A stretch of 49,964 nucleotides of DNA from Acrocarpospora catenulata (GTDB taxonomy: Bacteria > Actinomycetota > Actinomycetes > Streptosporangiales > Streptosporangiaceae). Of this stretch, positions 30,539 through 31,610 are shown piece by piece. Each line of letters begins with the position of its first letter. Positions within the stretch are counted from its first letter, which is position 1. The notes beneath the pieces are model-generated. The model saw only the letters and a list, made by a program, of their open reading frames with translations. It was not told the DNA's origin and searched no databases. Made by a program: the position numbers and the translations under genes. Location: NCBI RefSeq assembly GCF_018476525.1, contig NZ_JAHCST010000067.1, positions 1 to 49,964 on the forward strand, given 5' to 3'.

Positions 30539-30551
30539 CCGAACGGCCGAA

Positions 30552-30576
30552 GCCCCCGGGTGACCGTACCGGGGGC
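30552..30576 (+). terminator. hairpin after the nadD-rsfS-phosphatase operon
   Basis: An 8-bp stem GCCCCCGG / CCGGGGGC with a nine-base loop, 14 bases after the stop, without a T-run. It is placed between convergent genes and could serve both. Confidence 0.5.
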
Positions 30577-30626
30577 GGGCACACCTTCCGTATGGAATGC
30601 GTGGTCGCGTGCCGGTTTCTGGTGAT

Positions 30627-31457
30627 TCAGGAAGGCGGGTTGGTTGAGCAGGGCTGAGTGTCTTCCGCTCCACGGCCTTCGGACACGCATTCGGGGTTGA
30701 ACACGTTCGAGACGCCTGGCATGGCCTGGGCGGCGCGTATCACCTGGTCCCAGTCCGTGTCCGGTTTCATTTTCAGGCGGATGAGTTCGGGCATGTCCTG
30801 GACCTTCACCACGTCCAGGATGCTTCGCTCGGCGGTGACGGCCTGTCCCTTCTCCACCATGTCGGCGATTTTGGCTTCCACGTTCTCCCGGAAGCGGGCG
30901 TAGACGGTTTCCTTGTCGTCATAGCTGACGGATTCGACCTGGGGCAGGATGGCGAGGTCGTGGCGGACGGCGGTGATCTGCTCGGGGGTCGCGGCTCGTC
31001 CGTGGCAGGACGGGAAAGGGAACCCGTCCTTGCACAGGAAAACCCGGATCTCGTCGGCGTCGGTGACGGGGCCGCCCGCGAACAGCAGGTCGCTCACGCT
31101 GGCCGCGACCACCTGGCGGTCCTCCCCGACCAGCGCGGCGCTCTCCGCCGACCAGATCGGCGGCTCGTACGGCGCCACCCGCCGCAGCGCCACCGCCCGT
31201 TTCCTGAGCGCCGACCGGCGCCCGTTGAGCACGGCGGACCGCACATACGCCAACGCCCTGTCCGGATCGCGCAGGCGCCGGCGGCCGGCGTGGACCCCGG
31301 CGAAAGCGTCCTGCACCACGTCCTCCGCGGTGGCCTGGTCGCCGACCATCATCAACGCCAGCCGCACCAGCCCCAGATGGTGCGCGGCGAAGATCTCGGC
31401 GACGTCGACCGGGGCGCCGGCCGGGGCCCTGGCGGCTCGCAACAGTTGGGCTTCCAT
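30627..31457 (-). CDS. hybrid protein: ECF sigma region 2 fused to FtsX extracellular domain
   Basis: 276 residues made of two unrelated parts. Residues 18-90 are the region-2 domain of SigE-family ECF sigma factors (FAAHHLGLVRLALMMVGD, AEDVVQDAFAGVHAG, ALAYVRSAVLNGRRSALRKR). Where region 4 should follow, the chain instead continues at about 120-135 into a sequence like the FtsX extracellular domain (135-256: IRVFLCKDG...CHGRAATPEQI, VESVSYDDKETVYARFRE, MPELIRLKMKP, MPGVSNV) with two cysteines. There is no signal peptide or membrane helix between the parts and no region 4, so neither parent function is complete. The simplest reading is an in-frame deletion fusing a sigma gene to a downstream membrane-protein gene, near 31060-31110. 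No stop or frameshift is present. Confidence 0.75.
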   Translation of the reverse strand: MEAQLLRAARAPAGAPVDVAEIFAAHHLGLVRLALMMVGDQATAEDVVQDAFAGVHAGRRRLRDPDRALAYVRSAVLNGRRSALRKRAVALRRVAPYEPPIWSAESAALVGEDRQVVAASVSDLLFAGGPVTDADEIRVFLCKDGFPFPSCHGRAATPEQITAVRHDLAILPQVESVSYDDKETVYARFRENVEAKIADMVEKGQAVTAERSILDVVKVQDMPELIRLKMKPDTDWDQVIRAAQAMPGVSNVFNPECVSEGRGAEDTQPCSTNPPS

Positions 31458-31610
31458 GACTCAGAGACGCGCCGGACCCGCCTCCTGCTGCTCGCGTTCC
31501 GGCTCAGGCCGAACAGGATATTCGGGGGTCCGGTGGGTCCGCCGCCAATAAATCTGTTGAGCGGGTGCTTAGGCTGGATGACATCCCCTGCTGTCCCCCA
31601 GCTGTGAGGA

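Follow-up and report, generated by a model that had tools for sequence, protein, structure and literature searches.

A fused sigma region 2/FtsX-type domain gene in Acrocarpospora catenulata, probably the remnant of a conserved two-gene operon

Introduction

Natural fusions of extracytoplasmic function (ECF) sigma factors with their partners have been described previously. In IutY (ECF243), the sigma factor is fused to a membrane anti-sigma factor, and proteolysis releases a cytoplasmic portion (PMC8999054). In known anti-sigma factors, a two-helix segment contacts sigma regions 4 and 2. FtsX, in turn, possesses four membrane helices, with its extracellular domain located between the first two, and uses this domain for holding peptidoglycan hydrolases. 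Extracellular domains of FtsX have been solved for Mycobacterium tuberculosis (4n8n, 8idb) and Streptococcus pneumoniae (6he6, 6mk7), and the mycobacterial domain is described to bind RipC via F61, F110, F113, and F122 (PMC10694151).

In this study, a stretch of 49,964 nucleotides from the soil actinomycete A. catenulata (contig NZ_JAHCST010000067.1; hereafter referred to as the window) was analyzed, in which a single gene combines sigma region 2 with an FtsX-type extracellular domain. Like IutY, it represents a natural fusion of an ECF sigma factor and a partner. However, IutY is described to keep a membrane-bound anti-sigma part in one chain with the sigma factor (PMC8999054), whereas the fused ORF lacks this combination, since neither region 4 nor the partner's cytoplasmic segment and membrane helix are retained in it. 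A counterpart of the two-helix anti-sigma segment is likewise absent. Both halves are homologous to the two genes of an intact operon in Acrocarpospora pleiomorpha NBRC 16267 (L001 4001-5184; record NZ_BLAF01000089.1; genome G001), which are arranged in the same order and share the upstream motif. In contrast to the fused ORF, representing one soluble protein, the A. pleiomorpha operon encodes two proteins featuring region 4, an anti-sigma-like N-terminus, and a helix.

Domain content of the fused gene

The fused gene represents one ORF of 276 amino acids, the frame of which is free of stops (Table 1). Pfam assigned Sigma70_r2 to residues 23-88 (E 4.7e-9; 36.3 bits, cut-off 24) and FtsX_ECD to the C-terminal half (E 4.1e-12; 47 bits, cut-off 23.5; best stretch 136-203), whereas no Pfam match to sigma region 4 was listed at E ≤ 1. 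Moreover, no membrane helix was detected by hydropathy analysis in 19-residue windows: the highest mean value amounted to 1.43, starting at residue 20 within sigma region 2, compared to 1.74-2.92 for the 72 intact partner proteins described below. A preliminary description of this DNA, made from the letters alone, had proposed an uninterrupted frame encoding region 2 without region 4, an FtsX extracellular domain from about residue 135, and no joining membrane helix, and had recommended an HMM search of each half. These proposals were confirmed, and both halves exceeded the curated Pfam cut-offs.

Table 1. Positions of features in the window and, in the last row, of an intact operon used for comparison.
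Feature	Position	Strand	Remark	Basis
Inserted stretch	30539..31560		site empty in congeners G001-G004; right edge approximate	comparison of congener loci
Fused ORF, sigma region 2 and FtsX-type extracellular domain	30627..31457	(-)	276 aa	ORF reading, Pfam
Sigma-derived part	31116..31457	(-)	residues 1-114; region 2 and start of linker, without region 4	identity to G002 sigma factor, junction scan
Deletion junction	31116/31115	(-)	R114/Q115; about 371-389 bases gone relative to three congeners	junction scan
Partner stem just outside the membrane helix	31053..31115	(-)	residues 115-135	alignment to L093 and L058
FtsX_ECD domain and partner tail	30630..31052	(-)	residues 136-276	Pfam, profile, model
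Motif AGCAGCA-N16-CGTCTC	31464..31492	(-)	ends six bases ahead of the ATG	probable autoregulatory ECF promoter, as deduced from the motif
Example of an intact pair	L058 4413-5596			

Residues 1-123 share 75% identity with an intact SigE-family ECF sigma factor of the congener G002. Compared to the whole SigE-family model TIGR02983, the fused ORF achieved 70.3 bits and thus remained under the curated cut-off of 141.55, as did, though only slightly, an intact sigma factor (L012, 137.7 bits). Of the SigE-family features, region 2 is retained, while region 4 is missing. Regarding FtsX, the extracellular domain is present, but the four membrane helices enclosing it are not, and the score against the NCBIfam model FtsX_actino (NF038346) was 44.4 bits, far under the cut-off of 250. 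The genuine FtsX of the same organism, comprising 299 aa and scoring 361.5 bits with this model, is encoded intact at G000:C104, adjoining FtsE, by which a fusion to ftsX itself was ruled out. The domain identity given in the preliminary description holds, but the gene that supplied the domain encodes a membrane protein with an FtsX-like ectodomain, which is the partner of the sigma factor and overlaps it translationally.

The two-gene operon in related genomes

Altogether, 341 genomes of the family were searched, the window's own assembly (G000) included. All rows outside G000 with E ≤ 4.4e-41 were taken as the sigma set, comprising 73 loci in 73 genomes. Each of these intact sigma factors was found by Pfam to possess region 2 and region 4, with lengths of 152-184 aa (starts as called in this analysis). 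At 72 of the 73 loci, the next gene overlaps at an offset of -4 and encodes an FtsX-type domain. Our own model of this domain was seeded with five of the 72 partners; Pfam FtsX_ECD, which is independent of it, matched all 72. The partners share an architecture consisting of a conserved N-terminal segment, a hydrophobic helix, and FtsX_ECD, and an R-L-R in the N-terminal segment as well as two cysteines in the ectodomain are invariant among them. In the congeners G001, G002, and G003, sigma factors of 175-177 aa and partners of 217-220 aa are encoded with a 4-base overlap. The congener G004 harbors only a sigma paralog (52%).

The parental partner is coupled to an ECF sigma factor and features, as judged by hydropathy, a conserved segment in front of its helix. 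Its N-terminal segment of approximately 35 residues is similarly short as the known two-helix anti-sigma segment, a comparison referring to size alone. Such sequence traits would be expected of a transmembrane anti-sigma factor whose sensors can be exchanged, and the partner may inhibit the sigma factor. The parental pair thus probably constitutes an ECF sigma/anti-sigma system, in which the FtsX extracellular domain would act as the sensor. It differs from FtsX, having four helices, by its single-pass anchor, and from the fused ORF, which has no anchor. No description of an ECF sigma factor with an FtsX-domain partner was found in the open-access literature searched; the pair may be listed in the main ECF re-classification or in the 2015 actinobacterial survey.

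An ORF spanning both halves was detected in one of the 341 genomes, namely the fused ORF of the window's own genome. In this search, up to seven candidates were scored per genome, among which any fusion would come top. A stable fused family was not supported, since a second fused ORF was absent from these genomes, and the stable chimera offered as an alternative in the preliminary description gained no support from other genomes. The inspection of relatives suggested there had a two-sided outcome: the fused gene did not recur, whereas neighboring genes for the sigma factor and the FtsX-domain protein were the rule. One row of G019 (query 4-164) was rejected as a fusion, since its sigma factor has a normal end at 182 aa, followed by the partner gene (L062). 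Likewise, L069, L074, and L093, considered as fusions broken by an in-frame stop, appeared by eye to be regular partner genes that follow a different ECF sigma factor.

Junction and origin of the fused gene

Up to about residue 114 (VGEDR), the fused ORF tracks the sigma factor, and from residue 115 onward it tracks the partner stem. Partner stems align without break to the fused ORF from residues 112-115 onward; residues 115-135 align with 'EDRVVMAASLQQVLSAGAEEP' of L093 and 'QLVVMGAV' of L058, and the stem outside the membrane helix reads 'EDRVVMAASLQQVLSAGAEEPVITVFLC' in L093 versus 'EDRQVVAASVSDLLFAGGPVTDADEIRVFLC' in the fused ORF. Compared to G001, G002, and G003, the missing bases correspond to region 4, the partner N-terminus, and the partner helix. 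In the preliminary description, a recent in-frame deletion joining two neighboring genes had been considered, with a breakpoint at 31060-31110. The deletion itself agrees with the parental operon and the junction; its recent date was not substantiated, and the junction is located just outside the proposed interval.

In separate phylogenetic trees, both halves were placed beside G001, G002, G003, and G322, with weak support for the sigma fork (82/74) and higher values for the ectodomain fork (97/87). The latter tree was computed from 35 single-domain partners and one FtsX. A single deletion in one operon explains the order, strand, and frame of the two halves. This point and the common nearest rows argue against a chimera of unrelated loci, in which halves of different operons would have been joined by recombination. 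For such an origin speak the FtsX_ECD-type partners encoded behind seemingly different ECF sigma factors (L069, L074, and L093) and the position of the fused gene outside the locus of its congeners; altogether, we regard it as highly improbable.

The site of the fused gene is empty in all four congeners, where the flanking genes, presumably encoding a histidine-phosphatase/mutase and an ABC transporter, adjoin directly. In G001-G003, the pair adjoins a gene which we take to be secA-like, and it is absent from this place in G000 and G004. In G009, G019, and G007, by contrast, it is located between genes presumably encoding DNA polymerase III delta'-like and PSP1-like proteins. Since the pair resides at differing loci among the genomes, repeated relocation of the operon is probable. 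In addition, a paralogous sigma gene of the window's own genome (L003, G000:C100; 55-59% identity) was observed to adjoin the delta'-like gene, where other genera harbor the FtsX_ECD pair.

Region 4 of the fused gene's sigma factor was searched for elsewhere in the assembly, where only paralogs were detected (best 59%, G000:C100), and the first approximately 79 residues of the partner had no match at E ≤ 0.001. A partner query matched only the fused ectodomain (50%) and the genuine FtsX (44%). The absence of both region 4 and the partner N-terminus indicates that no intact copy of the switch is present in this 98.4% complete assembly. These results also bear on an assembly or sequencing artefact, by which approximately 380 bases would have been dropped from a pair that is intact in the strain. 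The assembly is a draft of 181 contigs representing one genome, for which no reads were at hand, and the word GATCGG, present at both deletion edges in G001 and G003, could mislead an assembler. However, the shared words measure only about six bases, the reading frame was restored exactly, and the missing pieces were found on no other contig, so that an artefact appears very unlikely. The same word makes a deletion between short repeats plausible, albeit unproven.

Our results are most readily explained by a two-gene sigma/partner operon that was probably collapsed by deletion into one gene, most likely leaving a non-functional remnant. This explanation builds on the directly established domain content, parental operon, junction, uniqueness among the searched genomes, and lack of an intact copy in the assembly. 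The first ancestral gene would have encoded a SigE-family ECF sigma factor and the second a membrane partner, whose start codon overlapped the sigma stop codon. The partner would have consisted of a cytoplasmic N-terminus of about 35 residues and a single membrane helix, leading to an FtsX-type domain outside the cell (predicted topology), and was probably a transmembrane anti-sigma factor using the extracellular domain as sensor. In the lineage of the window, with the pair residing at a different locus, the deletion would have extended from the sigma linker to the partner stem, joining the remnants of both genes codon to codon. The resulting product would possess neither region 4 as reader of the -35 box nor the anti-sigma segment, and since it would also lack a membrane anchor, the sensor would lie in the cytoplasm.

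Conservation, selection, and predicted fold of the two halves

Region 2 of the fused ORF departs from 2 of 49 columns conserved at ≥95%, while other rows depart from up to six. For the ectodomain, departures were counted in 2 of 13 (≥90%), 5 of 26 (≥80%), and 8 of 35 (≥70%) columns; other rows reach 3, 7, and 14, respectively, placing the fused ORF in the upper range, yet inside it. Compared to the congeners, the FtsX-type domain carries about 15 additional residues in its lower-lobe part (window 30828-30872 (-), residues ~196-210).

In the branch test used, the genus was kept as one clade. For the sigma half, an omega of approximately 0.13 was obtained; one ratio was not rejected (2dlnL 1.6), and omega=1 was weakly disfavoured (5.6). 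The ectodomain half yielded an omega of 0.02-0.05, corresponding to the lowest grid values, on a nearly saturated branch; here, too, one ratio was not rejected (2.9), and omega=1 was disfavoured with a 2dlnL of 12.8. A strong rejection of neutrality for both halves (2dlnL ~29) was set aside, because the underlying hand-set tree of seven rows split the genus. For region 2, a relative rate of 3.96 was obtained, which lies within the values for six other genes (1.36-4.08), near their upper end. These comparisons give no clear indication that the halves have decayed freely over a long time, nor do they prove that selection acts on the fused protein, and no firm conclusion is drawn.

The predicted model of the ectodomain half reached a mean pLDDT of 86.7. 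Its best PDB match, and the only one at E ≤ 0.001, was the M. tuberculosis FtsX domain 4n8n (E 6.6e-4), and the ectodomain alignment profile matched five solved FtsX sequences with E values between 1.9e-9 and 6e-8. The similarity to the FtsX extracellular domains of both species thus extends to fold and profile.

Against a dead remnant speak the lack of clear decay in either half, the disfavoured omega=1 (weakly so for the sigma half), the rate of region 2 within the range of other genes, and the kept promoter boxes, although a young fusion fits these observations too; since the halves are well formed and the boxes kept, the fusion is either young or retained. If retained, the soluble fused protein could be a functional chimera, whose region 2 would, for example, bind the RNA polymerase clamp and compete with other ECF sigma factors, while the former ectodomain would bind a cytoplasmic protein or dimerise. 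The open frame, the two halves without clear decay, the confidently folding ectodomain, and the promoter boxes, which might be read by a paralogous sigma factor with the same -10 box, are in agreement with such a function. However, the fusion is restricted to one of 341 genomes, region 4 and the partner N-terminus are lost, disulfide formation between the two invariant ectodomain cysteines would be unexpected in the cytoplasm, and a young fusion would also account for the data. A functional chimera is therefore considered unlikely, and the remnant of a collapsed operon is preferred.

Upstream promoter-like motif

Among the 74 upstream regions of the 73 loci and the window, 70 contain the motif AGCAGC(A/G)-spacer-CGTCTC a few bases before the start. 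Its spacer comprises 15 bases in 68 cases and 16 in two, the window and L130, where the pair is intact. Among the four misses, L121 and L181 show one changed base, L184 features only a -10-like box, and the start of L120 was apparently called at a wrong position. The motif points to autoregulation and to a leaderless transcript. In G000, an identical -10 box and a -35 box resembling that of the fused gene are located upstream of the paralogous sigma gene, and hence transcription of the fused gene may still occur. This gene most likely represents the remnant of a broken switch, its promoter boxes being still present and its function presumably lost.

No regulon was inferred from the motif. Within ten genomes, the loose pattern occurred at 6-14 sites per genome, compared to 2-8 sites for the reversed control. 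In G001, G002, G003, G007, G009, and G019, the strict form AGCAGCA-N15-CGTCTC was found at the own operon and no more than a single further site. It misses the own operon in G000, G122, and G340 (spacer 16, spacer 16, and AGCAGCG, respectively), in which two, two, and one other sites were detected, and it has no site in G004.

Possible role of the parental pair

Considered alone, the fusion is a deletion product of a single genome, and its value lies in pointing to the conserved parental pair, which is the better find. The putative sensor domain of the partner is the one by which FtsX holds its hydrolases. Provided that the partner acts as an anti-sigma factor, gene expression in these bacteria may respond directly to the state of cell separation. 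It can be speculated, with considerable doubt, that the pair constitutes a hitherto undescribed switch. Its FtsX extracellular domain, taken from the cell-division machinery, would sense the engagement or absence of a cell-separation hydrolase and report it to transcription via a transmembrane anti-sigma factor; the fusion would then represent a natural loss or rewiring mutant.

Alignment by eye revealed that F61 of mycobacterial FtsX corresponds to a conserved aromatic residue in the partners, namely the phenylalanine within VFLC. At the positions of F113 and F122, L/I and M predominate, as is also the case in the organism's own FtsX, and F110 is unmatched in the partner alignment.

In a class-wide search with the partner model, covering a sample of 296 genomes, starts at model positions 2-5 were found only in the window's family among the matches listed. 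The matches listed from outside the family start no earlier than position 9; most of them lie in open frames of about 300-400 aa, and they probably represent genuine FtsX proteins.

At L063 5854-7379 (G031), the sole exception among the 73 sigma loci, a partner of the CU044_5270 family is encoded at the same -4 offset. Here, the same sigma family is combined with a different ectodomain, apparently representing a sensor exchange. Conversely, FtsX_ECD-type partners occur behind a seemingly different ECF sigma factor at L069, L074, and L093, indicating that the sensor may be common to several sigma families. Finally, our domain model matched once in 35, twice in 35, and three times in 2 of the 72 partners; apparent tandem FtsX_ECD-type domains are accordingly present in 37 of them, L064 2779-3837 (-) being a multi-hit case viewed by eye.
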